Shown one piece after another: positions 35,453-61,104 of a stretch of 64,000 nt of DNA. The notes beneath the pieces are model-generated. The model was not told where the DNA came from and searched no databases. It saw only the letters and a list, made by a program, of their open reading frames with translations. The translations under genes were made by a program, and so were the position numbers. Every line of letters begins with the position of its first letter. Positions within the stretch are counted from its first letter, which is position 1. The DNA lies in NCBI GenBank assembly GCA_026874595.1, contig CM049316.1, forward strand, positions 9,414,839 to 9,478,838, read 5' to 3'. Source of the DNA: Sipunculus nudus. Taxonomy: Eukaryota; Annelida; Sipuncula; Golfingiida; Sipunculidae.

Positions 35453-37692
35453 GTACAGCAAATCATGAAAGCTGCTGTATATCTCTTAGCCGCCGTCTTT
35501 CTTGTGGCGTTGCTGCTCGTTGACGAGGGACGCAGCTGGCGCGTTCGTATGTACCGCCCTAACAGGTGGTTGTGGTGCCCTCGCTACTGTCCGCGCGTGT
35601 GTTCCGGCCAGAGCTACTGTGGCTCTCTCTGTAGGAGACTGTGCAAGAGAGAGATCCGTTTACAAGTGAGTTCTTCACCAAGGTCATCGACTGACAAACA
35701 TTTACGTCCCATTCCAAATAAACACAAAACGACATATTATGATTATTCCTGGTGTTTACAGCCGACCAGTAGCGTCTCCGTCACCCTTCCGCCAGAGGTC
35801 ATTAATTTCTTCTCGAAACAAATCCACCAGTTAGGAACTGTGGGACGGCCGGACTGCTTGTCTCAACTGTCAAACTTTAAAATCAAAATTTGTTACATTT
35901 CAAGGTAATTTTTTACATACTCAGGTTAAGAATTAGATAAGTCAGCATTAAAAAAAGAGGAGGCGGTTACCTCCACACAAAAAAAACTACGTAAATGTAC
36001 ATCTGCAGAATTCCATTCGGGCATAACACACTTTCTCTCATTTTATATCCTAGCGTCAACCAGGCCCGGTGACGACAACTCATTTGGTGGGTCATACCAC
36101 CCAGGAACCCCCGAAAGGCGCAGTCGTTTTTGAGGGAAACACGGCCGTGGTGCACGACCTTCCCTTTCTTTCCCAAACGGGAAATATTCAACTGCCTCGG
36201 CTGAGATCCGTACTCACGATCTCCCGGCTTTGTATTCTGTGCGTCACCTCTGAGCCACAGAAACCGGTCTTCTGTTTATATTTCACATGCGTGTGATTAC
36301 AAAAAAAAATTGTTATTGCATGAAGTCCTCGAGCACAAAAACACCCATGCTTATCTAATATGTCTTGAAACAATTATAATCCAACATATTAGAACGAACT
36401 ACATTGTCACCACATTTTTACCTACACCGCCGATTTATGTAGAAGACGCGGTGCATTGTGGGGTCAGACTTTGACGCCCATAAACCCTAAACAGCAGAGT
36501 CGTGCTTTTGGGAGTCGTGCAGTGTCAGCGTGTCTCCGTATATACCCGGGGCAGATACGGTTTGTTAAATGACTCGCATCAGGGACATAACTGATAAACG
36601 GTTTCCTAGGTTTCCAGGGCTGGAAACAACAAACTACAGGAATATCTCCTGTTTCAATATCCAATGCACTATTCACTCAGAAATTTAATATTAATACTGA
36701 AAATTAATTCAGCAGTTTAATATTTATGAATCTTCAAAAATTTGCGTTTTTTGTTTTTATGAGATTAAGAGACTGCCTATTATAAAAATCCCAAATACCA
36801 ACTTCGTGTGACATATATTTGGAAACAAGAACACAACAAGTCACTTTAAACTCGGGATAACTGTATAACTGGGCACCTAATACATTTTATAATACCCTTA
36901 TATAACAACTTTTCATCTTAAGCCTGCTACCCGCTATTTATAGAGTATTTACAGAATTGTCCCTAAATATTAGGACAACCGTCTTTCATATCACAAAGGC
37001 GCGCCTGGTATGAAATACAATAGTTACTTCGATCATTTTCAGGATAATGAGCCATTCCCGTCAGAGTTTGAGGAATATGACACTGACAAGGATGGTCACA
37101 TCAGCCCGGGAGAATTCACTAAACCCATCCGTGACGGTTTCGAGGACACTAACCTGGTCTCTGATCTCGTTGACAAGCATGGTAAATATGATACTGAACG
37201 TGTGTTTACACCATATCCATGCTCCTCCCGGAATCGACCTTCTAAAACTCTTTCTTTTGTCGGAAATTTTTAAGGATTAATGAGCATATTCTATATTAAA
37301 ATATGGGTCGACAGGTTTGTGAGGGGAGTTTTTTTTAGCTTCCTGCAAGTACAAACCATAGACCAGATTCCCTTTCCCCAGTTTTTTCTTCTTTGCGTTT
37401 GCACTGTATTTCCAATGTAGTAATTAAAAAAAATCTTTTGGTCAGAGTAATAGTCTTACGTGAGAAATGCGAACCTAATATTATTTATTTTACCTTGACT
37501 CTAAAGGTATTCCTATGTAATCACTTAGTAGCGGGCTCAGTCACTTACTTAAGAAAATAAGTTTAATTTACAAAAAAAAAACATAAATCAATATAGATAA
37601 TGTATATAATTTCAGCCGAAGAACAACAGGACCAAGAAGAGTTTGATGACGCCGCATTCATAAAGATGACAGACGAATGAGTATCGTTGTAG
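35453..37692 (+). CDS. Gene A: secreted cysteine-rich peptide precursor with EF-hand tail (mytimycin-like layout)
   Basis: Exons 35453-35665 (ATG at 35465), 37043-37181 and 37616-37692 (TGA ends at 37680). Phases 0 and 1 join to 134 residues. An AG acceptor at 35451-35452, 12 nt before the ATG, implies an untranslated first exon upstream. Residues 1-22 are a hydrophobic signal peptide (MKAAVYLLAAVFLVALLLV). The basic core has six cysteines spaced C-x3-C-x3-C-x5-C-x3-C-x3-C and many Arg/Trp. The second exon encodes an acidic tail with a canonical EF loop (DTDKDGHISPGE). The second EF loop spans the last intron and is degenerate: D1 is kept but D3, D5 and G6 are lost. The stop lies 12 nt before another donor. 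Mytimycin of mussels has the same signal/Cys-rich/EF-hand order but a different cysteine pattern (recalled). Host-defence function is inferred only. Confidence 0.75.
36060..36275 (-). repeat. SINE-like element with tRNA-type head in gene A intron
   Basis: On the - strand the right-hand end reads GTGGCTCAGAGGTGACGC ... AGCCGGGAGATCGTGAG, like a tRNA-derived A box and following region. It runs into a GC-richer body than the surrounding intron. The B box is only partly recognisable. Confidence 0.45.
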
Positions 37693-37960
37693 GTGAGTTA
37701 CTTAGGTCATAGCGGTAAAAATATAGATTTCAAATAATATGCCCCTTTGTTTAGAAAAATACTCACCTGCGTTACATGTGTCACAGGTAGACGCATACTC
37801 TTCACACGTAACTTTTAACTGTATATATATTGGTTTAATCAACATATAATTCAGTAAAACATTTTGTCGTTCTGTTGAATTTATGTTCCCTGGCGGTGTT
37901 AACATTCATGTATACATGCCGACGTCACCTCATATAATGCTGTCTTCTATGATTTTGCAG

Positions 37961-38204
37961 GATCTACTCGGCATGTTATCGGAAGGAGACAAGATGGACT
38001 CCATACTCTTTGTGTTCCTGACAGGGGTCTTCTGTATTTGTGTAACCAACAAACTCTTCGATTTCCCGAAATGAAAATTTCCCATGCCAAATATAACCAA
38101 CAGAAATCATTTGTCCATGAAACATGCTTTATATATTGATAAACCTGTGGATCTATTTTGCGGTGTAATATCAGTGACGCGGTACTGTATATATAAACAG
38201 AAAC

Positions 38205-38264
<60 letters not shown>

Positions 38265-38539
38265 CTTTCGTTTCGCCATGCAGTCTGATTTATTCTCAGT
38301 ATGGCCACGGACACACAAAATATTTACGGAACCGCTGTTCTTATTTTTCAGGGATCAATATGTGAAGAGCAACAAATCTTCTGTATTTATGCATGTATTA
38401 AAATACATATTACATTCATGAAGTTAAACTGACAATGGTTTAATTTTGTGTTATTCGTAATTACAAATCATTTTAAGAATTCTCACATATTTTTCAGACA
38501 TGATTTTTAAACCCTTTGCATCTGTTCATACCAAATAAA
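37961..38539 (+). other. Probable 3' UTR exon of gene A
   Basis: Gene A's third exon ends AG/GTGAGT (37692/37693). A pyrimidine-rich acceptor (TGATTTTGCAG, ending 37960) precedes GATCTACTCGGCATG. The block has no conserved frame. An AATAAA at 38534-38539 could end the transcript. The same acceptor and start recur at 44308 as an orphan. Splicing is inferred, not proven. Confidence 0.4.
38208..38263. repeat. (TA)n microsatellite in D1
   Basis: About 27 TA units. The matching site in D3 (57353-57422) has about 35 units, and in D2 only a few TA remain near 44700. Confidence 0.95.
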
Positions 38540-39680
38540 ATTCCACAAGTGATAGTTAGAGTACTTTAATAGAATACGCCCCTTTAACAGGTAGTTATAA
38601 CTTGTGGACAAGGTCTTTCTGATTTTGTCCTTATCAGGGCGCGGTTAACATAGTGTTATATGAAAAGAAACACGAAACAAGTTCTTCAATACTCCTTTCA
38701 GCCAAAGGGCTTAGGTGGACTGGTTACCATAATGGTGAAGAAGAGATTCCTGTGATTTAACACTGATATGAAGGAACAGGTATACGTGCATTAACGTAAG
38801 ACATAAAACAAGTATACATTGCCCTTTTTTATTAGAAAATAGAAGGAAAACAGCCACTCACATCTGTTGGATGATTCTGACTGTTGTAACGCATATCATA
38901 TGTACAACATACAACAAACACTTATTTGCGTATTAATGTTAACGAAGTCCCCTCTCATGATAATGATAAACTGATTATGATCATCTTATAGTCAGATATA
39001 AACTGGGAGTATCTATGTTTTATTTTTCATCTAATTTTATACCTGATTATTTGTTACTCAAAACACAAAGACTGAAAAAATAATACATTATCGTTAAATG
39101 GCCATGTGAATAAATTAATATGCTAGATTTTGCAATTATAAGTACAAGCACCTAGAAGAAAACTTTGTCAACCGTATGCGGATCGTTGTACCAGCAGAAC
39201 AAACATGCATACTGTGAATACAGTCACAGAAAGATCTGCAGTAGCGTCCACTTCGTGTCACAGTGGTGTGTCAGTGTGTTTGTGCATTTAAAAACGTCAC
39301 TGGACTGGCTCAATTAATTGAAACATTTATTGAGTGTTTTGTCATTGTCCTAGAGAAATGGTGCATTCCTGGATATTATAGAATTTATTGATAAACATAC
39401 ATCCGGTACAAGAATCTAAACATGAAGTGTAGATTCAGAAAAGATTATAAAATTAATATATGCTCACTCGATTACACACAAAAAGGGGACTAGAATATAA
39501 CAGAACGTTATCTTTTTTTTCAAGTATATTCGGTGCGTTTCAACTAATGGACGATTGCCTAATAAGTAAATAAAAACGGTAAAGCTTTCAAGGAATATAT
39601 GGAGAACTGGAGAGTATTAAAAATGGACGATTTAACGGGTTCATGTTATCTAATAAGCAGCTCACATGCACACGTTTTGT

Positions 39681-39944
39681 TTATTCGTCTTTCGTCTTTA
39701 TGAATGGAGCGGCATCAAACTCTTTCTGGTCCAGCTGTCCATCATCTGAAATTATAAACATTGCATTCACAGTATATCTATATTAAAACCTCGTCGATTT
39801 GAACTTTCACATATCGAACATGCAGGCCTACCCCTTTACGTAAAAGTCAAAGATGTATTCCCACTCCAGTGAATTAATTCACTGCCAAGTACAACATGCA
39901 TATGTGGAATCTAGGATTTGGAAATATGGAATCTAGGATACAAG

Positions 39945-39999
<55 letters not shown>

Positions 40000-42461
40000 T
40001 AGATAAAGATAAAGTGTGACGCCTTTTAGATGGATTTTTTAACGTATACGTTGAACTTTTTAACTTCTTTCTCTGTTCTTTTATTTTTGAATCTTATTAT
40101 TCTCTCTTGTCTATTCGAAAGATTTTAAATCGCTAAGTATTTTTAATGTTTAATCAGTTCATACTGCATAATTTTCGTCATTGTTTAATTTGTATTTTGA
40201 AAATCATCTCCATATGGTTCATATTAATCATTATATGAGGAATGTACATTTTACGTACTTTTCAACACTCCTGGAGTAAAAAGAGTGTTATATAAATGTA
40301 GTAAAATTATAATAATTAACAACTTCGCCTCCGTTATGACCATTTTGCGGGGTATCTGAAGTACGATGCAATACGTGAACAATACTGGTATAATTACCGT
40401 CCTGGTCGACGAGATCAAAGATCGGGTCACTGTGTTCAATGTTTGAGCTGATGTGTTTGGTGAATTCTCCCGGGCTGATGTGGCCGTCCTTGTCGTTATC
40501 ATATTCCTGGAATTTAGACGGGAAAGACTCCACATCCTGAAAATGAACACAACGACAGTTATATTTTATCTTAGATAGAGCAGAGTCTTCACTATATTTG
40601 CATCTGTTGTATACAATATTGAGTATACTTGCACACAACGCAGGGTTCTGTCGATGACCAAAACACAGAGAAAATTCGCCGGCCCACCATAGGGCTAACT
40701 GGGGTTATAGCACGATACGATCTGGTACTCTTAGAAAGGAAATTAAATAAAAATATTTCCTATGGTTTTAGTAAACCAATGTTCACATAATGCTTTATGT
40801 CGAAAGGCCTGTAATAAAAAATAACCATTCTGGGAAGCATGAAGCACCTGTAACATCAGCAACTGAGAATTGTCCTGAGAGAATTGAAGCATTTACAGCC
40901 CCGTAGACATCTTGCATTTGGTGGCAGTCCTGTATAAGGCTTTAGGCCTGTGTACTATTATGTTCATATTTTAACATTCTTGGTGCAAAATAGGGCTGAG
41001 AACAGAACAGTAATGTTTTCCAGTGGTCAAAAAAATACACATAGATGTACTGAACATTAATCAATGGATATATGTTAAATCTCACAGCTGTGTATGGAGT
41101 GTTATGATCACAGTTAACTGCAGGTGCAATCTATGGACTCCACAATGCGTCAGTCATTGAAAAAAAGCAGTTGAGAAGTTCATTCTTATGGGCTACGCCC
41201 CGTGTAATTGGCCACAGAGCTTCCCAAAGGAGTGGCAGTTGGTGCGTTTCGGTTTAATCAAAGCTTGATATAATTTCCAAATTTGAACAGATCTTTCAGC
41301 CATTATGTGACTAAAACTAATTTGCTGTGTTTATTTTTATTCCATTCCTGGGAGAAATCCTACACTATTGCCAATCAGCAATGTTGTTACAGCCAAAAAC
41401 ATTTTAAAAGTGCTGGAACTGTTGAAAATATGTCATGCTTTAACGATCTCAGGTGGTCAATAACTTTAAAAATGCCATTTCAATAGGCTGCAGTTAATTA
41501 TTTTGATTGACCAAGTCTAATGAATACTCAATTTGTACCTTTTTTCTGATAGAACATTTACAAGAATGTATGAATATAAAATGAAAAAAGAGGGCAGACA
41601 AGGTAAACCTGGTCAGTGTTTGGATATAAATCACGGTTTTTGATATAAGTAGAAGCCTGTTGTCAACAAACTAGCCTACAAAAAAAGGGGGGAGGGGGCT
41701 CAATACTCTGGCCTTGGTAAACAAGTGGGCGTGCTAGATATGCTAGAAGACTTTATACACAACTCTCGCATAAAGTCGTATATTGGGAAGAAAATTATGA
41801 GATCCGGCACTACTTTTCGGTATTAATTATTTTAAGAAGTGTATATATATTTTTTCTATTTGCCAGATTTTTAAGTTATGAAAAGGAGGGCCGCGCAACT
41901 ATATATAGGCCCTGGGTACAGCCATCTTTTTATTTACACTCATTACACCTATAGGCCATCTATATAAGACATTCAGTAATTAATATCATTCATTAACATA
42001 ATTTTTCTATCAATTCGCAAAAGATCACAGCATTAGCTTGTATTAACCATCAGTCGGCCACGCAAACAGTCTCATACCCTCCCCCCCCCCCCAAGCTCAG
42101 GGCAATTGGAGAAACCCACTGGGGCCTGATGGACTGCTGGTCAAAACTCCGTGTTAATATAAGGTATTCTTTTTCGCGTTACTGGCCTGTACAGGCAAAA
42201 ATGCAAGAAGTAGTCATTTGTTTACCTGAAGACGGATCTCTCTCTTGCACAGTCTATGACAGAGCGAACGGCAATACCTCCCGCCGGAACACACGCGTGG
42301 GCAGTAGTGAGGACACAACAGAAACCTGTTGGGACGGTAAGCCTTCCGCCAGAAACCAATTCGGCGGCTCCTCTTTCCGAACCGGATCGTTTGTCCGTCA
42401 TCAACACACAGCGACGCCACAAGAAAAACGAAGAGAACAGCAACAGCTCTCATGATGACTC
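39681..42461 (-). CDS. Gene B: secreted cysteine-rich peptide precursor with EF-hand tail
   Basis: Coding exons in transcript order: 42453-42226 (ATG at 42453; acceptor at 42462-42463 implies a 5' UTR intron), 40536-40398 and 39745-39681 (TAA). Sizes 228, 139 and 65 nt give 143 residues. Signal peptide MRAVAVLFVFLVASLCVDD, then a very basic stretch with GKRSRR (possible furin-type cleavage), then the same six-cysteine core as gene A (CPHYCPRVCSGGRYC ...). EF loop 1 is DNDKDGHISPGE. EF loop 2, split by the last intron in phase 1, is DQDDDGQLDQKE, a perfect calcium-binding consensus. The gene converges on gene A. Function as a calcium-binding-tailed antimicrobial precursor is inferred. Confidence 0.75.
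39951..39997. repeat. (TA)n microsatellite in gene B intron
   Basis: About 23 TA units. The equivalent intron of gene C has its own array at 59320-59374. Confidence 0.95.
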
Positions 42462-43158
42462 CTGTAACACGTTATAGCTAGTACACACTGGCTAAACAGT
42501 ATACGGTCTTGTCTCTGACTTCCATCCCCCCCCCCACCCCCCACCCCCACCATGCATGTTGTTTTATACTTTTCCGAAATTTTGGTGCTAAGTGTCAGAG
42601 AAATTAAGGATTCAATGAGATACAGAATTTCTTGGGACGGGAGGTTTTCACTGAGAGTTACAAACGCGCAAACAAGCCTTTGAACTTACGCTCTCTGAAT
42701 CATTATATGTCGAAATTTACAGAAATATGATAAACACACCTTTCAGAACTTCCTCAGCTGCCGTCGGGCCTCAAGTTTTTGATTTGAATATCAACAGGCA
42801 GGTGATTCAATGAATTAAAACGGGTCTGTGTGATATAATCAGCAGTTCTTCCGATACGTTAGATAAATCCGAATGTGTTTTGGGGGCCGTGTAAAAAATT
42901 TAAAATGTTCTTGTCACTAGCAAATTATCAATCCTTGCCTAGTTCACGGAATTCCTGGTAGACTTCGCTCCTGGTGACTCCTGCTAGGCCACACTTGGCA
43001 TCTTTCCCGACGGTTCAAGACCAAAACAGATTTCTGGAATTTTATTTTATTTTATTTTTTTAGGGCCCCCCCCCCCGGCCCTGCTGGGAGATACAGATCT
43101 AATCTGATTACGGTGTATCCAACCGTGTGCAGATGTTAGGAGATGGTGGATCCGGGAT

Positions 43159-43239
43159 CACGTGGTTCAGATCTCACGGGAACAAAGGCATGCTGTGTTA
43201 CTACTTAAGAGCATTCTGTATATTACGGACTATAAATAG
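43159..43239 (-). promoter_or_regulatory. Candidate promoter elements of gene B
   Basis: CACGTG E-box (43159-43164) and CTATAAATAG (43230-43239; reads CTATTTATAG on the - strand), 66 nt apart, about 0.7-0.8 kb upstream of the gene B start codon. The pair is kept in D3 at 62437-62442 and 62502-62511. The second motif fits both a TATA box and the MEF2 consensus. Role inferred from conservation. Confidence 0.4.
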
Positions 43240-43471
43240 CCTTAACAGGTAGATTACATGGAAAATGTATTTGATGACCAGACAGTAAAACCCAAAGCCA
43301 AACCACCCTTTGAAAGGGACATGTATAAAATGTGTTCTCCGTTTTTAGGATTTCAATTAAAAGCGAATTTAGGCCATACGTTTGCCATTCAGTTACTGAC
43401 AAGTTTTATTTGTAAATTGAAATTTACTGATTTTCAGCAGTGTCATGTTTAAACCCTCCCTCTCTTGCTGT

Positions 43472-43537
43472 TTCTCTTTCTACCTCTCTCTCTCTCCCTC
43501 TCTCTCTCTCTCATACACACACATATATACATATATG
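43472..43537. repeat. (CT)n/(CA)n/(TA)n microsatellite
   Basis: TCTCTCTCTCCCTCTCTCTC followed by CACACACATATATACATATAT. The corresponding position in D3 is 62740-62797. Confidence 0.85.
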
Positions 43538-44390: not shown

Positions 44391-44610
44391 TAATCCCTTA
44401 ACTCAGTGACAGATCCTGGATGAGTACTTTCTGCAATGGCAATATTCTGCACTGTGTTCTTTAAATTTATCCAAGCCCCATTAAATTTTAAATGCAAACT
44501 TATAAATATTCAGGATAATTCCCAGGGGCAGATCCGTTATTTAGTTAAGGAAGGGGATTACCGTTTATTCCGAGCGACTAATATCTTATCAAGAGGTTCC
44601 ACATACCAAG

Positions 44611-44652: not shown

Positions 44653-46400
44653 GGTAAGAGTAGAAGTGGTCGACCCGTCAATTTCCGTCTTTGTTCTCTT
44701 ATATATTTCACTCTTGTCCGCTACTCAGAATTGTTCTCCGTGAGTCCAGGCACACGCAAATAAATAATCGTTCTACGTACGTTCTACGTTCGAGCGATAA
44801 GAGCTCGGTATTCATGCATGCTGCTAATTGCTGCCGTTTTCTCTGCCCACTAACTATAAAGTCATTTCCTTCGTGTATTGAAATACAAATTATATTCATA
44901 AAGATAAAACTGAAAATGGATTCAACTCTGTGTTGTTCTTGCTTTACATTTAAAGAATTGTCATATTTTTTCTCCTTCTTCAAGTTGATAAAAGTTCACC
45001 GATCGAAATGATAAATTAAAAAAAAATCACCTGTCCTCAATATTTGCTCCATAAATTCGTTTGACAAATTATTTTGTTGTGTGTGTGGCCTTAACTCAGC
45101 TTCTTTCTATTGACCTCTTATTTGTATATTCTCTCCTTTCTACTAAATTATTTTATAAATGCATGCGTTGTGTCCCTAGTTAAATGATTTAGATATCTCT
45201 TTCAAATTCACTATGTAAAAGTGAATGCATGGAAGGTTATGACATTAAGATAATTATCGGATATTATTTCCTTTATAAAACACTGTTAACACCTTTAAAT
45301 ATTCTTATTTTATACAGGTTTTTTCTTTGCATATTCGCGACGTAGAAACCATTTTCTCTTGTTTGGTTGTACAAAAATTACGTTAAAAATCGTTTAAAAT
45401 GACGTTAAAGATTATTAACGTAATAAATTATTGTTTTGCATTGTTGACATGCTGAGGCATGCACAGACCCGGAAAAAATCTGGAAAATGGAAAAATATAC
45501 ACTCAATAACGAAAAGCGGCGTCCAATTTTACAAGAATACAACATAAATAACACTTATGTAGGCATATATATTAACGAAGTCCCCTCTCATGATAATGCA
45601 CAATGTTATAAGAATAATTCAAATGGTCAGATATAAAGGAAAGGATAGATGCATGTTGTTTATTTCCCATCTGATTTTATACAAATTATATAGCATTCAA
45701 AACATCATGATTCAAAGGAATGAATATTACAATATCTTGGGATGAATTAATATAATGAACCTGAGGATGAATTAATTCGATATAATTTGCATTCTTGAAA
45801 CAAGCATCTAATATGAAAAGTTACTAAACGCATGAGGATGGCTGAACCAGCAGGACAAATATGAGTACTTAGCCAGTTACATACAGTGTGCTAATAATAT
45901 CCATGCATCTTATACGTCACGGGACTGGTTCTGGTCTAGGGAAACATTTAATGAGTGTTAATGTGACTCTCTGTGTACATGAAATACCCCAAGACGTTTA
46001 CTTGAAATGGAAAAACTGTTCTTTCTTGGATGTTTTAAAAGATTTGTTAATGAAAGTACACGAGACCGCTCTCGAGAAAACGGTATACAGAGTTCAAATC
46101 CAGTATATGAGCCTTCATCAGGACGGAGTGTAGACCCTGAATATATACAACAATAAAAGCTAACTGAAGAATACACAAGGAGAACACCTGGATATAAGTT
46201 TTTAAGAATGTTATGTGGTTGATTATATAATAAAACAGAGTTTAATATATGTAGAATTCACAATGTATGCTTACAAAAATTATCAATTTAACGGTTATGA
46301 TTTTTTTTCGATATTAATGTCCTATCTATGAGGTAAAGCACGGTGTGATGCGGGCGGGCCGGGCCTGTGTGATCTTATAATCAGCTCTCACATGTGTTGT

Positions 46401-49341
46401 TTATTCGTCTTCCTCCCTTATGAATGGAGCGGCATCAAACTCTTCCTGGTCCAGTTGTCAATCATCTGAAATAAATTATAAACATTGCATTCACAGTATC
46501 TTCTATAATATAATATTATTAATACGGAGTTGGTTTTATTCTAGCTGCTTCCGTTCTGTTTTGACTCTCCAAATTCGGCAGACGTATGGGTGGTGTGCTC
46601 TTCTAGGACAAGTTTGTTTTACTTTTCGGGATTATGCCCTATTAAGCTGAATAATTAATAATTTTAATAATTCACCCTTAGGTGCCCCTATTTCTTTTGT
46701 GCTGCAAGGTCCTCGAGGCCTGTGAGGCTTTTTTAGGAGGTGCCTCGGGGATTTTCACTGGCCTGTTAAGACCGTGGCCTGCCAATAAGGCACGGGGATC
46801 CACTATAATCCCCATTGATCCCCCATATCCATTGTAACGCCTATAAAGGAATTTTCTCTCTTAAAGGAAGTAAAGGTTTTTAATCCAAAGACCAGGTGAC
46901 TCCGCTTTCAACGCGATGGCTTTTCAGTTTGGTCAACACTGGCCACCGAGTCCAGTGATGTGACAAGTGTTTTTTTTTTATTGGATACAGGTATGTTGAT
47001 TTTTAAACATAAGAAATATCTTTCCATGATAATCATGGTTTCAAAAGTTCGGCCAAGTCATTTGTTTCATGAATTTTTAATTTTTTTTTTAAATAAGCCC
47101 AACAACTTACTTATCATTCGGGTGAGGTGGGGTCGGGGGGGGGTCACATATATTTGTTAAGATCCGTTGTCTGTAGGGACGGTGAAACATGAAAAATATT
47201 ACCAGTAGATCTTTAAATTGATAACAAACTAGAATTTGAAGTCAGGGCGTACAGACCTCCACAAGAATCTCCTTAAATATCAGTCATGTGTTTACGTATA
47301 CGCGTTTCATCTGTGAACACTGTCATGCGTCAGTAACACAAGTTCACCTTGCGAGCGGCAGAACAAATAAATATTACGAAAGGTTGCCTTCATCACGGGG
47401 ACAAAGGAATGGTCCTTTATCATAGTGGTTTATAAGAAAATGTATATTGTGGTAATTCTTATTACCTCCGAAATGAAATAGGCTTTTGATATGTCTTTAC
47501 CCTAACCCTCTACAAATGTTCAGTAAAACATTTTTCGCCTGTCACGCTTTTTCAGGAGGCGACCTGCAATCGCCACTGAGCCCCATTTTCATTATTTCGC
47601 CTGTTTTAGAATTTTACTCTGTTAAAAGGAAGTAAAGATTTAAATTCAACGTGGAACACATGTTCACATGAATCTTTCAATAGGGAGCACTTTTCCGTTG
47701 AGTGGAAACAAAGAGCTGAGACTCTTTACACGATCACCGTTTTATATGTTTACAGGTATGTTGATTTTTATATATTCAGATGTATCCTTCCATGATAACC
47801 ATAGTTTTAATAGTTCGGCCGATTTATGGGTTGTTTGAAGAAAGTTTTTTTTTTCAAAAGGAACCCCTGTGGGTGGGGTGGTTGCACATACTTCTAAGCG
47901 TCCTGTTAGGGGCTTTGAAACACCCGCCAGAATCTACTAAACAGTCGTCCATTCATACGTGCACGTTTCATGTAAAACATTGTCATGGTTCAGAATCACG
48001 GGTTCACCAGGCGAGTGGCAGAACAACTGCATACATATGGGCGGCTTCTACTTGGGGACAAAGGAAAAGCTGCTTATAATTATTCCTTTGTGGAATTGTT
48101 TTTATGCACTTAAGAAAAAAATATATTATGGTGATTCCAATTACCTCCAAAAATGTAATGGATTACGGATGAAGTTTTACTCTACCCCTCTACAAATTTT
48201 TCAGCAAAATCTACATTTTGCCTTAATTTGCTGAGAGATAATACAATGATCCAGGGCTGTAGTGGTTTCTTTGCTAAATGCTTTCATCGAAATATATCAA
48301 CTTGCTTTCTTTTTATGTGGGAGATTTGTCAATTTTGCATCAGACCTGCTAATTCAATGACAATTTACAGTAAACATTTAATACTGTTGGAATATATTTT
48401 TCTGGGCCTATCTTTATCACATTGGCAGCAATACGTTTCGCGTACAAGGGACTTCAACGACATATGCACGTCTATTAAAAAAACGCATGTGTCTGGTAAC
48501 ATGCCCTAGACTATACCCACAACAGACTACACTGAATAAACAACGTGTTTCAAGATATCACATGAGCTTCAAATAATAAACGCATCTTTCATATAATTTC
48601 ACGGTAGAATGTTTCTTTATACAATCGTTAAATCTACGATATTTCCCAAGCAATGAAGCTGTCGGACCTTTTTTGTTTATCGGGCGAAACATTTCTCGCT
48701 TAAAGATTCGTCCACCTTGAATATGCCTCACGTCTCTTTCCAAAATTTGTTTGTTTTTTTGTGAGATTTCTGGAATAGAATAATTTTTCTTTCTATGTTG
48801 ATTTTACTGGGAGGGTGTTCCTGAAGAATTCTAGCAGAAGCAATCTGTATATCATATAAGTGAAACACATGAAAAAAAATCCTGCAAAAACCTTAGGATT
48901 AAAATATGCGTCGTTTAGTTCCTATCAGCTCATTACAAAAATATCCATCAGATAGAGCCGTGGTTTTCATCGGGTGCAGCTAGCATTTCTATTAATACCT
49001 CGTCGACTCGAACTTCCACATATCGAACAGACCTACTCCCTTACATAAAAGTCAAGTTGTATAGTTCCTATCCCAGTTAATAAACTCATTGCCTAGTCCA
49101 GCCTTCATGTGTGGAATCTAGGATATACACTTCAGTCTGGGCTGATGGCTGTTTGGGGTCCCCAAAAACGGTGTAATACGTTAAAAATGCTTCTATAATT
49201 ACCGTCCTGGTCGACGAGATCAAAGATCGGTTCACTGTGTTCAATGTTTGAGCTGATGAGTTTGGTGTATTCTCACGGGCTGATATGACCGTCCTTGTCG
49301 TTATCATATTCCTGGAACTTTGATGGGAAAGACTCAACATC
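46401..49341 (-). pseudogene. Pseudogene of the cysteine-rich/EF-hand peptide family
   Basis: Two exons aligned to genes B and C remain: 49341-49203 (EF-hand exon, 139 nt) and 46465-46401 (last exon, 65 nt), both with intact splice borders. Each carries a nonsense codon where the relatives have glycine (TGA for GGA): one inside EF loop 1 after HISP, the other at the glycine of EF loop 2. No signal-peptide/cysteine exon exists upstream. The matching segment of D2 is deleted and a Helitron-like element sits next to the gap. The locus cannot make the precursor. Confidence 0.8.
46800..48330. repeat. Direct tandem duplication, unit about 765 bp
   Basis: Two diverged units. GGTATGTTGATTTTTA occurs at 46990 and 47755. 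AAAGGAAGTAAAG, CCATGATAA, AGTTCGGCC, AGTTCACC..GCGAG..GGCAGAACAA and GGGGACAAAGGAA recur in the same order. Non-coding. Confidence 0.6.
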
Positions 49342-50211: not shown

Positions 50212-51877
50212 GTAAACAAGGCCTACATGCCACAGCTATAAATAGTTCAAGACTGAACTTGGGTGCCAAATCTGATGCAGTGGGCTGTCTGCCAAAGCTA
50301 TAAATAGAATGCAGCTACTGTATTTAGTGAATTCTTGACCTATACCTAGCTTCACTGAGTGAACTCTTGACCTGTTGTCTATTGTGATACAGTTGGCAAT
50401 CTAGCAAAGCTATAAATAGACCCAGGCAGAGCTTTGGTCTGTTGCAAAATCTGAAATAATTAGGAAGATGCTAAGCTATTTATAGTTAAAGATACAATCT
50501 TGTTCTGTTTGTAAATCTGTTTACACACACTGAACTTTGGCTAAATTGCTTTTTTTTAAGCTGATGCAAGCATAAGATTTTTTAATAAAAATGTTTAGAA
50601 TAATAAAAGATGCAGTCCTTTCATTTTAAAGGTCTAATAATTTGCCAAAAATCATTTAAGTAAACTTGAACGAAGGCCACCTAATAATTATTTTTGTGCA
50701 GTGTTACTTAAATTGAAACAACATTTTTATGAAGGAGCCCTTAATTTGAAATAGGTTACTAATGGCCTCAAGACCTACTGAAACTTTCTATTACCAAAAA
50801 TCAATGAACCCAACTTATTCTTATACAATTAAAAAAACCTATCGTAGAATATTCTTTTAAACATTAAACAATTCAGCTTGACAGTTTCATCATAAAACAT
50901 TTTAAAGCTAAAAGTGGCTAAAATTAAAAGGTTTCTGAACGTAAAAACAGGTCGATATAGGTGGCGCCACAAAAACTGCAATTTCAAATATGAGTCACGT
51001 GACCAACATTTGCACAAAACTTAGTGATCCTAGATCCTATTGTTTCTTAGATGATTATGTTAGTATGCTCACTTGCCAAATGACTAATTTCAAATTCCTG
51101 TTAATCGGCCGGAACCATCAAACCAAAACCATTTGAACAATTTTGAGAGAGCTGGTCTCTGGGATCATTTCTGTGAAATATTGAACCATTTGGCCGATTT
51201 TTTTTTTTTTGTGAAGAAGTTTTTCAAAGTTTTTTTAAAACTTTTCCCCCATAAAATGTAAGCTAATACAGTTTGCGCCAAAAACACTCAACCCACATCA
51301 TTTGATATGTGACAGATTGTTGCATAAAATTTGGGGATGCAAGCTCCTGCTATTTCTGAGATATTATGGATTAATGTACTGATGACTGATGACCCCTGTA
51401 CAGAAAAGGTTGGTGCAGGTGGCGCCACCAATCCCTGAATTTCAAATATGACTCATGTGACCAACATTGGCATAAAATTTGGTGATGATAGCTCCAGCCG
51501 TTTCTGAGATAGTAATTTTTAGCAAGCTATTTAGGACAGATGAATAAGTTCAACTTCCTGTTACTCGTCCAAAATCACCGAACTTGAACCATTCGGACAA
51601 ACTTGAGAAAGAATGTTCCAGGGATCATTTTTTTTTTAACATTGGACAATTTGGTCGAACAGTTTCGGAGAAAAACATTTTAAACTTTTTCCCTATAAAA
51701 TCTACCAAAATGCAGTTAGTCAAAAATAAACAAAATCCGATAGAGTTATTTAGATGACTAATGATTTGCATAAAAATTGGTGATGCTAGCTCCTGTCGTT
51801 TTCGAGATAGTATGGGTTAACGCACAGACGACGGAAGACGCCACCGTACCGCATAAGCTCAGGTTCGCTTGTTAAAA
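50212..51877. mobile_element. Dispersed repeat inserted in D2
   Basis: D1 and D3 are continuous where D2 is split between ATTTTAAGTAA and AAAAAAAGTCGAGCGCGCC. The insert contains four CTATAAATAG-type motifs at its left. It then has diverged units with GGTGGCGCCAC, 'TTTCAAATATGA.TCA.GTGACCAACA' and 'GCTCC.GTCGTTT..GAGATAGTA'. It ends CATAAGCTCAGGTTCGCTTG, like the termini of bivalve dispersed repeats. No ORF. Confidence 0.55.
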
Positions 51878-51967
51878 AAAGTCGAGCGCGCCCTATAGAC
51901 CCTTGGTGCAGCTATCACATAACACCTAGGCCGACAATATAATATATTCAGTAATTAATATCTTTTA

Positions 51968-52014
51968 TTGTATCCGCCAAAACAGAGTTTTGCGGATACT
52001 ATGTTTTCAGCTGG

Positions 52015-52057
<43 letters not shown>

Positions 52058-53573
52058 GTAGGTGTCCGGAGAACTCCTCCGTAACCGCTGGGCGGAATTT
52101 TCCGAAACCCGGGATTATGTTCGGGTCACATGTGAACTGCTGCGCCCCGATTTTGTTTTGACCTCTGACCTTTCCTTTGCGCTCTGCGTCCGTTTGTGCG
52201 TCTGTTTCCACACATAAACCCACATATCTCGGGAACCGTTTGACCGATCAGGAAAATTTTTTTGCACAAATGTAGCCCTCGGAGAGCTTTATTACATACA
52301 CCAAAAATGGTGGCGCCACCTGCAACCATGTTTGCACAGTGTCCATCTGTTCGTCTGCCTTGGGTTAAAATCACTCATATCTCTGCAGTGACTTGACTAA
52401 TTCACCTGAAATTGGGCATGCGTAAACATCCTGGATAGCTTTTCTGATTTTATGACAGGTGGCGCCACCTACATTCACGTTTACGCTGCAGACATCCAAG
52501 CTCATATCTCGGGAACCGTTTGACCGATCAGGAAAATTCTTTTGCACAAATGTAGCCCTTGGACAGCTTTATAACATACACCAAAAATGGTGGCGCCACC
52601 TGCAACCATGTTTGCACAGTGTCCATCTGTTCGTCTGCCTTGGGTTAAAATCACTCATATCTCTGCAGTGACTTGACTAATTCACCTGAAATTGGGCATG
52701 CGTATACATCCTGGATAGCTTTTCTGATTTTATGACAGGTGGCGCCACCTACATTCACGTTTACGCTGCAGACATCAAAAGTCATATCTCAGGAACCGTT
52801 TGACCGATCAGGAAAATTCTTTTGCACAAATGTAGCCCTTGGAGAGCTTTATAACATACACCAAAAATGGTGGCGCTACCTGCAACCATGTTTGCACAGT
52901 GTCCATCTGTTTGTCTGCCTTGGGTTAAAATCACTCATATCTCTGCAGTGACTTGACTTATTCACCTGAAATTTAGCATGCGTATACATCCTGGATAGCT
53001 TTTCTGATTTTATGACAGGTGGCGCCACCTACATTCACGTTTACGCTGCAGACATCTAAGCTCATATCTCAGGAACCGTTTGACCGATCAGGAAAATTTT
53101 TTTGCACAAATGTAGCCCTTGGAGAGCTTTATAACATACACCGAAAATGGTGGCACCACCTGCAACCATGTTTGCACAGTGTCCATCTGTTCGTCTGCCT
53201 TGGATTAAAATCACTCATATTTCTGCAGTGGTTTGACTAATTCACCTGAAATTTGGCATGCTTATACATCCTGGATAGCTTTTCTGATTTTATGACAGGT
53301 GGCGCCACCTACAATCAAGTTTACGCTGCGACATCCAAGCTCATATCTAGGAAACCGTTTGACCGATTGGGCCAAAATTTTGCATGTGTATAAATCTCAC
53401 ATAGCTCTTTATCATACGCAAAACTGGTGGCGCCACCTGCAGCCATGTTTGCACAGCTCCCATCTGTTTGTCTGCCATGGGATAAAATATCCATGCTAAT
53501 ATGCAACACTTCACCCGTTCCACTCTGATTTAGGCGGATACAAGTAGTCGCTTGTCGACTACCCGTATTCTAG
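51968..53573 (+). mobile_element. Helitron-like non-autonomous element, GTATCCGCC family, copy 2
   Basis: Nearly identical to copy 1, with the same end hairpins and CTAG terminus but fewer core units (280-bp period). The empty site is visible in D1 (ATTAATATCATTCA joined to TTAACATAATTT near 41996). It shows insertion between A and T with no target duplication, the Helitron rule. The CCG repeat near its left end is about twice as long as in copy 1. Confidence 0.8.
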
Positions 53574-55249
53574 TTAACATTACTTTTCTTTCAATTCACA
53601 TAAGATGACAGTATCGGCTCTATCCACCAGGAGCCCGCCCCGCTAAGAGTCCGAATCATCGGATTCTTAAACATCACACTTATAAGCAGATACATGAAGG
53701 AACAAGCCTTTAATCTTGCACTTTGTGAATCCATATGTATGTGTAAAATCTACAAAAAATATGATTAACACGTCTTTGAGATCTTCCGCAGCTTCCTTCG
53801 GGTCTCTTCCACACTTTAAATGTACCAGATTTTGATTTGTCTGTCAACAGGAAGGTGATTCGTTCGAGAAAAAAGGGGCTGTGTGATATAATCATCAGTT
53901 CCATCTGATACGTCAGATAAATCATTTGCTTTAGGGGCGGTGTAGAAAATTAATTTATAATTGTCACGTAGCATAAAACCCATTCTTGCGCAGTTAACGT
54001 AGTTCAAGAAGGATTCCATAGTAATAGCCCCATCGGGAAATAAAATTTTAAATTTCTCACGATTTAAAGGAGAATTTGGGAATGGCCCCTCTTAGGACAC
54101 ACTTGGCATCGTTCTCAAAGCGTACCTAAAGAGCAATTGCATAAAAATGATAAAGTGTAGCAATCATCAATTTAAATATATATTTTTTAAATTCATTTGG
54201 ATAAAAACCTAAATCACCTGACAAAGATAAATTAACGAGAAAAATGCATTTTTTTTAAAGTCCTTGATGATTATAGAATCATCGAATCTTTTTTTTTTCC
54301 AAACATTTCAACCTTAAAGACCATCAGTATATTTTTTATTACTGCTTGGATCATTATGGCATTCTTTGATTTGTGTTAACAGTGTAAAACAAGAGCGTAC
54401 ACAAGCGTTTATTTATATGTAATTTATCAATATTAGGTCAGATATTAAAAGGTCCGATAGTTATAATGATACGACGTTCATTCATCGAAATTATTACAAT
54501 CTAAATGGATTTCTTTATTCATAAAATACAGTGTCCACTTTAAGATCATGACGCTAACAAAATCATTTCAAGATCCATCTAAAATAGAAATAACATTACT
54601 TTTTTTCAACCTGTCCTCTCATATTTTTTGCGCACACCGACCCCCCTACAAAGGAGATCAAGATCTAGAATGTTCACGGTGAATCCTGCCGTGTACTGAT
54701 ATCAGGAGATGGCGGGTCAGGGATCACGTGGTTCAGACATCACCAGAACAAAGGCAAGCTTTGCAACTAAAGAGCAATCTCTTTATCACGAACATTAAAA
54801 AGCTTAAATAAAGCGATTCCATAGAAAATATATAGGATGACCTGATAAGTGATGATGCTTAAATTTGCAAACCGGAATGGGACGCGAGGGCATTCAGATG
54901 TATAAGTTAGATGTATAAATGATAGGAATATATGAAATATGAATTTAGGGTTTGTTAAAGGCATGCAAGGAAGCTGTTCCTGAAGAAAGAAACGGATATA
55001 TGCATACCTCGTTAGTAGGCCTATCCATCCTCCTCACATTGTGCGGTGATAGGCCTGTGACACACTTCGATTGAAATTTCTAAATAATGTGTTTGAGCGG
55101 CTAAATGATGTATTAAAGGAAAGGAAAATTGTTTTTTGAAGGGACTATAAATGATGTTTTTAAATTGGAAAATCACTTGAAGTGAGGAAACAGAGTTCAA
55201 TTATCTTAATGGAAATCTTGATGAAAGCCTGCGTGTCGGGGCCCTGTTT

Positions 55250-57075
55250 CTCCCTAGTTATGTCCTTGTTGACATTTTGTCACATCCCTGTGTTCATTCT
55301 TCTCACAGAAGGTCTCCCTAGTTATCGGCCGGGTTATGTCCTTGTTGACATTGTGTCACATCCCTGTGTTCATTCTTCTCACAGAAGGTCTCCCCAGTTA
55401 TCGACCGGGTTATGTCCTTGTTGACATTGTGTCACATCCCTGTGTTCATTCTTCTCACAGAAGGTCTCCCCAGTTATCGACCGGGTTATGTCCTTGTTGA
55501 CATTGTGTCACATCCCTTTGTTCCTTCTTCTCACAGAAGGTCTCCCCAGTTATCGGCCGGGTTATGTCCTTGTTGACATTTAGTCACACCCCTGTATTCA
55601 TTCTTCTCACAGAAGGTCTCCCTAGTTATCGACCGGGTTATGTCCTTGTTGACATTGTGTCACATCCCTCTGTTCCTTCTTCTCACAGAAGGTCTCCCCA
55701 GTTATCGGCCGGGTTATGTCCTTGTTGACATTGTGTCACATCCCTGTGTTCATTCTTCTCACAGAAGGTCTCCCCAGTTATCGGCCGGGTTATGTCCTTA
55801 TTGACATTGTGTCACATCCCTCTGTTCCTTCTTCTCACAGAAGGTCTCCCCAGTTATCAGCCGGGTTATGTCCTTGTTGACATTGTGTCACACCCCTGTG
55901 TTCATTCTTCTCACAGAAGGTCTCCCCAGTTATCGCCCGGGTTATGTCCTTGTTGACATTGTGTCACATCCCTGTGTTCATTCTTCTCACAGAAGGTCTC
56001 CCCAGTTATCGACCGGGTTATTTCCTTGTTGACATTTTGTCACACCCCTGTGTTCATTCTCCTCACAGAAAGTCTCCCCAGTTATCGACCGGGTTATGTC
56101 CTTGTTGACATTGTGTCACATCCCTCTGTTCCTTCTTCTCACAGAAGGTCTCCCCAGTTATCGGCCGGGTTAAGTCCTTGTTGACATTGTGTCACATCCC
56201 TCTGTTCATTCTTCTCACAGAAGGTCTCCCCAGTTATCGACCGGGTTATGTCCTTGTTGACATTGTGTCACATCCCTCTGTTCCTTCTTCTCACAGAAGG
56301 TCTCCCCAGTTATCGGCCGGGTTATGTCCTTGTTGACATTGTGTCACACCCCTGTGTTCATTCTTCTCACAGAAAGGTCTCCCCAGTTATCGGCCGGGTC
56401 ATGTCCTTGTTGACATTGTGTCACATCTCTGTGTTCATTCTTCTCACAGAAGGTCTCCCTAGTTATCGGCCGGGTTATGTCCTTGTTGACATTGTGTCAC
56501 ATCCCTGTGTTCATTCTTCTCACAGAAGGTCTCCCCAGTTATCGGCCGGGTTATGTCCTTGTTGACATTGTGACACTTCCCTGTGTTCATTCTTCTCACA
56601 GAAGGTCTCCCCAGTTATCGGCCGGGTTATGTCCTTGTTGACATTGTGCCACATCCCTCTGTTCATCCTTCTCACGTACAGAATGTCTCCCCAGTTATCG
56701 TCCGGGTTATGTCCTTGTTGACATTGTGTCACATCCCTGTGTTCATTCTTCTCACAGAAGGTCTACCCAGATATCGGCCGGGTTATGTCCTTGTTGATAT
56801 TGTGACACATCCCTGTGTTCATTCTCCTCACAGAAGGTCTCCCTAGTTATCGGCCGGGTTATGTCCTTGTTGACATTGTGACACACCCCTGTGTTCATTC
56901 TCCTCACAGAAGGTCTCCCTAGTTATCGGCTGGGTTATGTCTTGTTGACATTGTGACACATCCCTGTGTTCATTCTTCTCACAGTAGGTCTCCCCAGTTA
57001 TCGGCCGGGTTATGTCCTTGTTGACATTGTGTCCCCCCCCCCCCCCCCCCCCTTGTGCGTTCTTCTCACAGAAGG
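55250..57075 (+). repeat. 76-bp minisatellite, about 24 units
   Basis: The unit reads roughly GGTCTCCCCAGTTATCGACC, GGGTTATGTCCTTGTTGACA, TTGTGTCACATCCCTGTGTT, CATTCTTCTCACAGAA. Units are very similar, with a few recurring variants (GGCCGG/GACCGG, CTCTGTTCC/TGTGTTCATT). Because 76 is not a multiple of 3, all three frames give repetitive ORFs; these are artefacts. It lies between D2 and D3. A poly-C run at 57034 interrupts the last units. Confidence 0.95.
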
Positions 57076-57348
57076 TCTATATCAATGAATGTCAAGAATA
57101 AAGTACCTGACATAATTTAATCGCACAGCACGCTTTCACGCCGAAACCGATCTATTTCGCCTGAGAAGTGTATATTTCCACAATCAAGTAAATGGAGCAA
57201 ATAAAGAGTTTGGATCGTCAACGACCATGCAAAACAGAACCAACAGAAATCATTTTTCCGTGAAACATGCTTTATATATTGATAAACCTGTGGATCTATT
57301 TTGCGGTGTAATATCAGTTACGCGGTACTGTATATATAAACAAAAACT

Positions 57349-57352
<4 letters not shown>

Positions 57353-57422
<70 letters not shown>
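57353..57422. repeat. (TA)n microsatellite in D3
   Basis: About 35 TA units, the longest in the window. Counterpart of 38208-38263. Confidence 0.95.
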
Positions 57423-57426
<4 letters not shown>

Positions 57427-57699
57427 CTTCGTTTCGCCATGCACTCTGATTTATTCTCAGTATGGCCACGGACACAAAAAATATTTTCTGGAAGCGCTGT
57501 TCTTATTTTTTAGGGATCAATATGTGAAGAGCAACACATATTACATTCATGACAATAGTTTAATTTTGTGTTATTCGTAATTACAAATCATTTTAAGAAT
57601 TCCCACATATTTTTCAGACATGATTTTTAAACCATTTGCATCTGTTCATACCAAATAAAATTCCTCCAGTTATAATTAGACTGCTTTAATAGACAACCT

Positions 57700-57960
57700 T
57701 TGAGCAGGACAGATTTCCGGAAAAATCCTGTAACATGAGGATGTTGGTTCTTTATGTACTGAAGTTGAAAGGTCTGACTTACCACAAGATGTCCTTTTTA
57801 AATGTGGTTAGGTTATTTTGGCGGGCCCTAACAAGTTTTAAACACGCGGATATAAACAAACTTAACAGTCTGTAGCATTTGCATTTTTCGGCCTGTTTTT
57901 AAAGTTTAACGGTTATCTTTAGTTAAAAGACGTAGGATATATCTGAATAGGCCCCTTATG
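57700..57960. repeat. Third copy of the 22.4 kb MITE family
   Basis: Shares TTATTTTGGCGGGCCC, GATATAAACAAACTTAACAG, TTTTTCGGCCTGTTTTTA and a right end GAATAGGCCCCTTAT with the copies at 22.4 and 34.1 kb. D1 keeps only a trace (ACGCCCCTTTAAC near 38577). Confidence 0.5.
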
Positions 57961-59081
57961 GTCTTTCTGATTTTTCCCTTATCAGGGCGCTGGTAACAGA
58001 GTGTCATATAAAAAGAAACACAAACAGTTTTTCAACACTCCTTTCAGCAAGAGTTTAGCTCCTTAAGTGGTTTGACTGGTAACCATATCAGTGAAGAAGA
58101 GATTCCTATAATTCAATACTGATAAATGTTACGTTTGGATATGAAGGAACAGGTACGTGCATTAAGTTAAACATAAAACAAGTATAAATTGCCTTTATTT
58201 ACCAGAAAATAGCGGGAAAACAGCCAGACACATCTGAGGAATGTTTCTGTGAGTTGTAACGCATATCATACAACATGCAACAAACACTAATTTGCGCATT
58301 TACATTAATGAAGTCCTCTCTCATGATAATTGTAAACTGATTATGATCATCCTATGGTCAGATATAAAGTGGGAGTATCTATGTTGCATTTTCCATTCAA
58401 TTTTATACCTGATTATTTGTTTCTCAACACACAAAGACTAAAAATTACTACAATATCTGGCGATGCATCATTAAATGGCCATGTGAATAAATTAATTCGC
58501 TAGATTTTGCCAATTTAATTGCAAGCACCTACAAGAAAACTTTGTCAACCGTATGCGGATGGTTGCACCAGCAGAACAAACATGAATACTGTGATTACAG
58601 TCACAGAAAGATCTGCCTGATAAGTAGCGTCCACTTCGTGTCACAGTGGTGTGTCAGCGTGTCCGTGCATTTAAAACGTCACTGGACTGGCTCAATTCAT
58701 TGAAACATTTATTGAGTATTTAATCCGGCCCTTACTGTATATCGAATTTCCCAAGACCAGTCATTGTCGCTGAGAAATGGTTCATTCCTGGATATTATAG
58801 AATTTGTTGATAAACATACATCCAGTAGAAGGATCTCAACATGGATTGTAGAGTCTAAAAAGATAAGATAAATTTAAGCTCAATGAAGTACACACAAAAA
58901 GGGGCCTTGAATATTACTGCACGTCAACAAGTATTCGGTGCGTTTCAACTAATGGACGATTTCCTAATAATTAAATAAATACGGTAAAGCTGTTAAGGTA
59001 TATATGGAGAACTGAAGAGTATTAAAAATGGACGATTTAACGGGTACATTTTATCTTATGAGCAGCTCACATACGTGTTGT

Positions 59082-59316
59082 TTATTCGTCTTCCGTCTTT
59101 ATGAATTTGGCGGCATCAAACTTTTCCTGGTCCAGCCGTCCATCATCTGAAATTATAAACATTATTTTTATTAATACCTCGTCGACTTGAACATGTCGAA
59201 CAGGACTATTCCCATACGTAATAATCAAAGATGTATTCCCACTCAAATAAATAACCTCAGTTCCAAGTCCAAATGCATGTCTGGAATCTATGATATGAAT
59301 TTATATGAAGTGAATT

Positions 59317-59378
<62 letters not shown>

Positions 59379-61104
59379 CGTATACGTTTATCTTTTTAAC
59401 TTTTATTTCAGTTGTTTTACCTCTTAATTAGATTAAATCGCTTAGTATTTTTAATGTTTTATCAGTTCATACTGCATAAGATTTAGTTACTGTATAATTT
59501 GTATTTTAAAATCACTTATATATGGTTCATATTTATCATTATATGAAGAATGGACATTTTACGTACTTTTGAACAATCTTTGAGTGAAAAGAGTGCTATA
59601 TAAATATGATAAAATAATAATAATAAACAACTTCGCCTCCGTTAATGACCATTTGCGGGGTACCCGAAGTACGATGCAATACGTGAAATATACTGGTATA
59701 ATTACCGTCCTCGTCGACGGGATCAAAGATTGGGTCACTCTGTTCAATGTTTGAGCTGATGAGTTTGGTGTATTCTCCCGGGCTGATGTGGCCATCCTTG
59801 TCGTTATCATATTCCTGGGACTTAGACGGGAAAGACTCCACATCCTGAAAATGAACACAACAACGTTTATATTACTTAACACTTGTACCACATTAAGTAT
59901 ACATGTACACAGCAGAGGACTTTGTCGATGCCCCAGACACATCGACGGGAGAAGATTCATGGCACGGTCAATCCTATCCTTTTTTCCCTTCTGCAGCCCT
60001 AGTAGGCCTATGGTCGTGATTTTAGCCCCTGTTCAACATTGGCTAGCCTCTACCATATGGCATTTATAGGCAAGTCGATTAGCAGCTTGAGTCCTGTCGT
60101 AATAATGAGACGACGTTTAGTGGCCACAGTAACGCCCCCTGTCTTTAGGCATGCCGGAAGTGTTTAAAAAAAGTCATGCTTTAACGATGTCAGGAGGTCA
60201 ATAACTTAAATTCAAGATGCAATTTCAATAAGCTGCGGTTCATCATTTTAATTGACCGATACTAATGAATACTCTAGTTGTACTATTTCTGATCGAAAAT
60301 ATACCAGAATGTATGAATATAAAATAAAAAAAGAGAGCTTACCTGGTAAATCTGGTCAGTCGTTTGATATAAATCACGTTTTTCTTTTAATATAAGTAGA
60401 AGACTGCTGTCTACAAAGTTAGTCACATAAAAGGGGGGGGGGGGGGGAGATTGGGGCTCAACACCCTGGCCTTGGTAAACATATGTGCTAAAATGCTAGA
60501 AGATTTTATACATAATTCTCGCATAAAAATTAATTTTGGAGAAAATGACGAGATCCGGTATTGCTTTTCGGTGTGAATTATTTTAAGAAATGTGTTTTTT
60601 TTTCTATTTCCCAGATTTTTAAGTCGAGAAAAAGGGCGCCGCTCAACTCTCGGCCCTGGGTACAGCTATCTGTTTTAGCTTATATTAACCATTAGCCGGC
60701 CATGCAAACAGTCTCAAGCATACCCCCCCCCCAGCTCAGGACCATTGGAGAAACCAACTTAGGCCTAATGGACTGCTGGTCAAAACTCCGTGTTAATTTA
60801 AGATATTTTTTCACGTTACAGGCCTGTTCAGGCAAAAATGCAAGAAGTAGTCATTAGTTTACCTGAAGACGGATCCCTCTCTTGCACAGTCTATGACAGA
60901 AGAAAGGACAATACCTCCGGCCGGAACACACGCGAGGACAGTAGTGAGGGCACAACAGAAATTTGTTGGGACGGTAGACTCGCCAGTGAACATTTCGGCG
61001 GCGGCTCATCTTAAATTTTTTTAACCGGATCGTTTGTCCGTCATCAACAAACAGCGACGCCACAAGGAAAACGAAGAGAACAACAACAGCTCTCATGATG
61101 ACTC
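59082..61104 (-). CDS. Gene C: secreted cysteine-rich peptide precursor with EF-hand tail
   Basis: Coding exons in transcript order: 61096-60863, 59844-59706 and 59146-59082 (234, 139 and 65 nt), phases 0 and 1, 145 residues. An acceptor just upstream of the ATG again implies a 5' UTR intron. Signal peptide MRAVVVLFVFLVASLFVDD, then a lysine/arginine-rich spacer with KMSRRR, then the six-cysteine core (CPHYCPRVCSGRRYC ...). EF loop 1 is DNDKDGHISPGE. EF loop 2 is DEDDDGRLDQEK: the last chelating position is Lys instead of Glu, which should weaken calcium binding. Closest relative is gene B. Function inferred as host-defence peptide; no enzyme motif. Confidence 0.75.
59320..59374. repeat. (TA)n microsatellite in gene C intron
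   Basis: About 27 TA units, counterpart of 39951-39997 in gene B. Confidence 0.95.

Follow-up and report, generated by a model that had tools for sequence, protein, structure and literature searches.

A large six-cysteine, EF-hand-tailed precursor family in Sipunculus nudus, most likely encoding host-defence peptides

What is made by genes that join a short secreted exon with six cysteines to an acidic tail with EF-hand loops? The question is raised by a cluster in a 64,000-nt stretch of DNA (the window) from the sipunculan annelid Sipunculus nudus (GCA_026874595.1, contig CM049316.1), which lies at C11:9,414,839-9,478,838 of its own genome (1.43 Gb in 153 contigs, to which the C numbers refer). 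The window holds three intact peptide genes (g1, g2 and g4) and a decayed copy (g3), spanning 35,465-61,096. We propose that they encode prepropeptides and belong to a large secreted family expanded in tandem, most likely of host-defence peptides, a reading to which we would give a probability of roughly 0.6. It is favoured by (i) the exon structure, the coding constraint and the pairing of core with EF exons at 57 of 63 places; (ii) the acidic tails of 17 genes and the cationic stretch-plus-hairpin of 10 of 12 genes of one group; (iii) two layouts of dibasic sites, followed in 12/12 and 13/13 genes and matching the split of the core tree; and (iv) clusters with broken copies, as described for the mytimycins in the passage cited (PMC8004829).

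The three intact genes share one layout: an exon encoding signal peptide and six-cysteine core (exon A), then an EF exon that is 139 nt long in each, and a final coding exon of 65 nt that carries the stop. Their junctions are all GT-AG, in phase 0 and then phase 1. The spliced products, of 134 (g1), 143 (g2) and 145 (g4) amino acids, have a terminal stop only, and a single frame is open, the alternative frames containing 2-4 and 11-15 stops. Divergence by the Nei-Gojobori method (NG86; nonsynonymous/synonymous, dN/dS) is coding-like for g1-g2 (0.239/0.815) and g1-g4 (0.268/0.692), since synonymous change is in excess (p = 2e-7 and p = 5e-5, respectively); the closely related g2 and g4 (0.113/0.206) give no significant excess (p = 0.057) and leave the matter undecided. 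All three genes look coding. Their cysteines are spaced C-x3-C-x3-C-x5-C-x3-C-x3-C, as an earlier note on this DNA had read them, and a looser form of the pattern occurs three times in the window, in these genes, versus 0 in 20 x 64 kb of Markov-1 sequence. The basic core and acidic tail that the same note described are also found, the net charge of signal plus core being +10, +14 and +16 and that of the tail -18, -13 and -14 in g1, g2 and g4, respectively. Its claim that three intact genes and a pseudogene share three coding exons stands for g1, g2 and g4 and fails for g3, whose core exon was not found, homology to the g2 unit ending at 50,041 and restarting at 53,701. The tail needs one correction besides: the 139-nt EF exon was rightly seen, and g2 and g4 have two EF-hand loops each, the second cut by intron 2 (in g2 ...VDQD/DDGQLDQKEF, the slash marking the intron), while the second loop of g1 has lost its ligands. 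The g2 precursor exceeds the Pfam cut-offs of EF-hand_1 (35.7 bits, cut-off 25.4) and EF-hand_7 (30.8, cut-off 30); g1 and g4 stay below every Pfam EF-hand cut-off.

The family reaches well beyond the window cluster, to about 60 places, and has a second layout, neither of which the earlier note could have seen. Core searches of the own genome with several family members, combined, gave 63 distinct core-exon places on C2, C3, C8, C10 and C11, a lower bound, seven of them with a stop in the matched stretch. Three of 38 core rows were left out of this tally (one covering a further piece of a gene, one containing a stop and a weak one on C8), as were two weak rows on C3 (19.66 Mb) and C6; two other weak rows (E 0.048 and 0.33) were kept, each with an EF match downstream. 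At 57 of the 63 places an EF match follows on the same strand within 5.6 kb, and on these numbers a coincidental meeting of Cys-rich exon and EF-hand gene was rejected. Among these, 55 have no stop in the match, at least one (L032) being truncated in fact; five of the six unpaired places have an in-frame stop. The L032 copy (L032:7983-8246) has the second layout, ends within the hairpin and carries a very Arg-rich N-terminal stretch ending FGKR.

The pairing was also approached from the EF side. Sixteen of 20 regions picked by an EF match have an upstream exon on the same strand with C-x3-C-x3-C-x(3-5)-C-x3-C-x3-C, and in one of the 16 (L036) a stop separates the core from the signal peptide; the L047 region on C2, likewise picked by its EF match, is also core-bearing; L048-L052 were picked by an existing core match and are not an independent test. 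No core exon was found in the fetched regions of L034 (3.4 kb upstream covered) and L046, and that of L032 holds the truncated copy described above. L043, with neither core nor exon form, was rejected as a member and taken for an ordinary calmodulin-type gene. The EF-tail search of the genome gave 47 matches at E<=1, and each of ten readable plus-strand EF loci allows a 139-nt exon with the same phases; among 25 modelled genes the EF exon measures 139 nt in 20 and 142-151 nt in five. The genome search that located the window also found a fifth core, g5, on C3. A search with a C3 core recovers those of g2 (E 3.6e-5) and g4 (E 8.5e-5), so that the core exons are related independently of the EF exon. 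The C8 member L030 (L030:5529-5771) has an apparent GC donor (GAG/GCAAGT) where the other 24 tabulated core exons have GT.

The six cysteines, with a central loop of three to five residues, are invariant in all 25 genes read. An alignment of 18 core exons has no invariant residues but Met1 and the cysteines, and that of the 25 trimmed cores none but the cysteines. The cysteine core has a pooled pN/pS (nonsynonymous to synonymous differences per site; 15 non-independent pairs) of 0.26, against 0.37 for the signal peptide and 0.52 for the stretch that separates the two; cores change fast in the pairs L042-L045 and L027-L030. The tail is acidic, from -6 to -25, in 17 of 17 genes with an acceptable last exon, a sample of the 25 in which the picks for L031 and L051 looked wrong and were unused, and six genes had none in the stretch covered. 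By inspection, the first EF loop is retained in 24 of the 25 genes. In g5 both loops are lost and the tail still carries -17; acidity has thus outlasted what must have been a loss of calcium binding, and this would favour masking of charge as the role that the acidic tails share. Retention of the first loop and acidity would equally suit structural or calcium-handling proteins, for example of a shell matrix, in which the tail does the work and the hairpin only anchors it. This we regard as highly improbable, given that exon A is under its strongest constraint in the cysteine core, that g5 lacks both EF loops and g1 one of them, and that in the 12 genes of group A (below) dibasic sites would cut the hairpin from the tail.

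Dibasic sites divide the 25 genes into two layouts. In group A (12 genes: g1, g2, g4, g5 and those at C3:53.6, C8, C2 and C10:17) a site lies 0-5 residues past the sixth cysteine in 12/12 (RK in L031, KR elsewhere, GKR in six), and several genes have additional earlier basic pairs. In group B (13 genes, at C10:22-23 Mb and C3:76) the site lies ahead of the core in 13/13, and L049, L050 and L052 have an extra basic pair shortly after it. Gly precedes the group B site in 11 of the 13 (exceptions L037 and L041) against a 7% Gly background (p 1e-11, the genes being related and non-independent), a sign of C-terminal amidation. The core-exon tree makes the same 12:13 division (100/99). Ten of the 12 group A genes have a positive net charge of +6 to +14 over stretch and hairpin combined. 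In group B the hairpin by itself is close to neutral (-2 to +4), and the N-terminal peptides of L033 and L039 are rich in Arg and Trp. g2 has dibasic sites on both sides of its core. Layouts and charges together fit a change of the released part, and we tentatively suggest, as a possibility that we would not yet favour, one precursor family in which the processing site has moved across the disulfide hairpin, group A releasing the hairpin and group B an amidated N-terminal peptide, with g2 as an intermediate. This change of layout is the most interesting feature of a family that is larger than the window suggests.

The Gly residues of group B, and the fact that some of its N-terminal peptides are short and uncharged, can be read differently, as marks of a peptide-messenger family in which the amidated N-terminal peptides are the signals and the hairpin with its EF-hands is a calcium-dependent granule-sorting domain. 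Most messenger peptides are not the fastest-changing part of their precursors, whereas here pooled pN/pS is highest in the N-terminal stretch; the group A site after the core and the tens of tandem genes with broken copies among them also speak against messengers, which we consider unlikely.

For host-defence prepropeptides, the genes and their exons, the cysteine motif, the coding constraint, the size of the family and its two layouts are observed; disulfide pairing, cleavage, amidation, charge masking and antimicrobial action we infer from them. Exon A would encode a signal peptide and a basic peptide of two arms, C-x3-C-x3-C, a short loop and C-x3-C-x3-C again, whose cysteines would be expected to pair 1-6, 2-5 and 3-4 into a disulfide hairpin of three rungs, a ladder for which either a helical or a beta hairpin would leave room. 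A furin/proprotein convertase (PC)-type cut at the dibasic site past the sixth cysteine would free the cationic hairpin; until then the acidic tail, usually with its EF-hand pair, would neutralise it and aid its folding and packing in the calcium-rich secretory pathway. In group B the site before the hairpin would release a variable, usually amidated N-terminal peptide, and hairpin and tail would remain as a conserved pro-domain.

The suspicion of the earlier note that the peptide may be a new family has held up in the searches made. Pfam, NCBIfam and PDB sequences gave the core weak scattered matches and none that was accepted, and a known peptide family was rejected as its identity on these searches; no relatives were confirmed in viral and prokaryotic collections, and searches of the open-licence full-text literature (subscription journals, preprints and figure images lying outside its coverage) turned up no description of a six-cysteine/EF-tail family among the entries listed. 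Big defensin (PF14862) matched g5 only, at 15.5 bits (E 0.019) with a cut-off of 25. Helix and strand propensities of the cores are mixed. Searched against PDB, the family profile matched Ole e 6 best (1ss3; E 0.18 and 0.42) and then 7ald (E 2.8), neither significantly. 7ald is the four-cysteine peptide of a BRICHOS precursor, which we take to be the annelid peptide capitellacin; it resembles the cores in an inner C-x3-C-x4-C-x3-C and Arg-rich arms, and differs in having four cysteines and a BRICHOS pro-domain instead of an EF-hand one. Ole e 6, in the passage cited a pollen allergen of two antiparallel helices (PMC8198727), shares the arms in C-x3-C-x3-C-x9-C-x3-C-x3-C and differs in its longer loop (x9), its plant origin and its acidity. 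A weak match to conotoxin I2 (E 0.22, two of 18 members), along with the small size, cysteine stabilisation and expanded clusters of the secreted peptides, would be in keeping with toxin-like or deterrent peptides of gland or mucus; the match reaches 12.1 of the 27 bits of the curated cut-off, and an acidic EF tail after the peptide is better explained by charge masking of cationic peptides, which leaves a toxin improbable to our minds.

Three known systems invite comparison, each through the passages cited here. Mytimycins are antifungal peptides of mussels (PMC8004829, PMC3210125), reported there from Mytilida only, which form a multigene family with 18 of 94 peptides pseudogenic (PMC8004829). 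Their precursor order (signal peptide, Cys-rich cationic peptide, dibasic site, acidic EF-hand extension) and their gene clusters with broken copies are shared by the Sipunculus genes (PMC8004829), in agreement with the architectural class to which the earlier note had assigned them; the mytimycin precursor has 152 amino acids and three exons, versus 134-145 amino acids in the window genes (PMC8004829, PMC3210125). An acidic C-terminal EF-hand extension is present, acidic and loop-less in g5, and the dibasic site between peptide and extension is found in 12 of 25 genes (group A), the other 13 having it before the cysteines. The cysteine patterns differ, as had also been recognised: mytimycins have ten invariant cysteines and 10-14 in all, the cores six in 25/25 (PMC8004829), and the window genes are thus not mytimycins. 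The two may work alike; the likeness of their EF tails is drawn from published descriptions of mytimycins.

The six-cysteine alpha-hairpinins are described in the passage cited as CX3CX3C-X4-20-CX3CX3C (PMC11591084), a spacing found in 23 of the 25 cores (loop of 4-5), all three window genes included, while L027 and L030, with a loop of 3, fall outside that range. Alpha-hairpinins are plant peptides, whereas the animal cores carry an EF-hand tail and their helices are only hypothetical. We know of no EF-hand tail in plant alpha-hairpinins, and a common origin is neither shown nor expected. The minicollagen cysteine-rich domain, given in the passage cited as CX3CX3CX3CX3CC with collagen repeats, is like the cores in its six cysteines at four-residue steps and its prolines after cysteine, and unlike them in its terminal CC, which the cores lack (PMC4863159).

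Several observations weigh against host-defence prepropeptides, or against parts of the scheme. Pooled pN/pS exceeds 1 in no region, and diversifying selection is not supported. AlphaFold2 run on the three window cores gave a pLDDT of 57 and left the fold undecided. Of the 75 EF places used, 18 have no core identified so far. Two group A genes are not strongly cationic (L031 0, L047 +2), and the neutral or acidic, in some cases short, N-terminal peptides of L040, L044 and L041 in group B are unexplained by a plain antimicrobial role or, next to the Arg- and Trp-rich ones of L033 and L039, by any one function. The EF-exon tree (46 columns) contradicts the core tree, since in it L031, L042, L045 and L047 join the group B genes (95/93); the cause is either an exchange of exons or a tree too short to be reliable.

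The cluster itself was expanded by segmental duplication, since the unit listed in Table 1 recurs in pieces around g4 (57225-62721) and g3 (45538-54845); the sequence after 38082, 3' of g1, is repeated at 57225-57693. Tandem repeats were also noted. A 280-bp repeat forms two arrays, at 19288-20970 (6.0 copies) and 52223-53488 (4.5 copies), the latter sitting where the core exon of g3 is lost; a 76-bp repeat (55257-57033, 23 copies, 93% matches) lies immediately before the g4-bearing unit, and a 44-bp repeat occupies 15973-16987 (23 copies, 79% matches). By eye, a TATA-like AGTATAAAA stands at about 42565 and 61185 (-), ~90-110 bp upstream of the start codons of g2 and g4; no TATA-like stretch was seen upstream of g1, where an AG may instead end a 5' intron, and its 3' untranslated part may contain a GT...AG intron at 37693-37960 (+). 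Elsewhere in the window, ten open frames matched no Pfam family, one of them also finding no PDB chain below E 0.5, and an exon-like open stretch of 69 codons at 5790-5996 (+) was without a Pfam family or a credible hit in PDB. The haemocyanin domain PF14830 was not found in the own genome, and equally not in 14 control genomes, so that its absence carries no information on the kind of animal.

Table 1 Exons of the peptide genes and the duplicated unit, in window positions.
Feature	Position	Strand	Support
g1 exon A: signal peptide and six-cysteine core, dibasic KR after sixth cysteine	35465..35665	+	full-length match in own genome
g1 EF exon, 139 nt, first EF loop intact	37043..37181	+	
g1 last coding exon (65 nt) with stop, second EF loop eroded	37616..37680	+	
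Duplicated unit (3' flank of g1 plus g2)	38082..43447		self-comparison of window
g2 last coding exon (65 nt), completing second EF loop	39681..39745	-	
g2 EF exon, 139 nt	40398..40536	-	g2 precursor above Pfam EF-hand cut-off
g2 exon A: signal peptide, six-cysteine core flanked by GKR (before) and KR (after)	42226..42453	-	
g3 (pseudogene) last exon, in-frame TGA	46401..46465	-	
g3 (pseudogene) EF exon, in-frame TGA	49203..49341	-	
g4 last coding exon (65 nt), completing second EF loop	59082..59146	-	
g4 EF exon, 139 nt	59706..59844	-	
g4 exon A: signal peptide and six-cysteine core, KR after sixth cysteine	60863..61096	-	

If these genes do encode host-defence prepropeptides, S. nudus would possess a large unnamed peptide arsenal (55 stop-free, EF-paired core places, at least one of them, L032, truncated), and the odd mytimycin arrangement of a defence peptide with an EF-hand tail would be suggested as one case of a wider design. 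The role of the EF-hand pro-tail could be approached by comparing g2 and g4, which have two loops, with g1, which has one, and g5, which has none. If, further, the processing site has moved across the hairpin, the family would offer an animal counterpart of the six-cysteine plant hairpinins and an instance of effector switching within one fixed gene frame.

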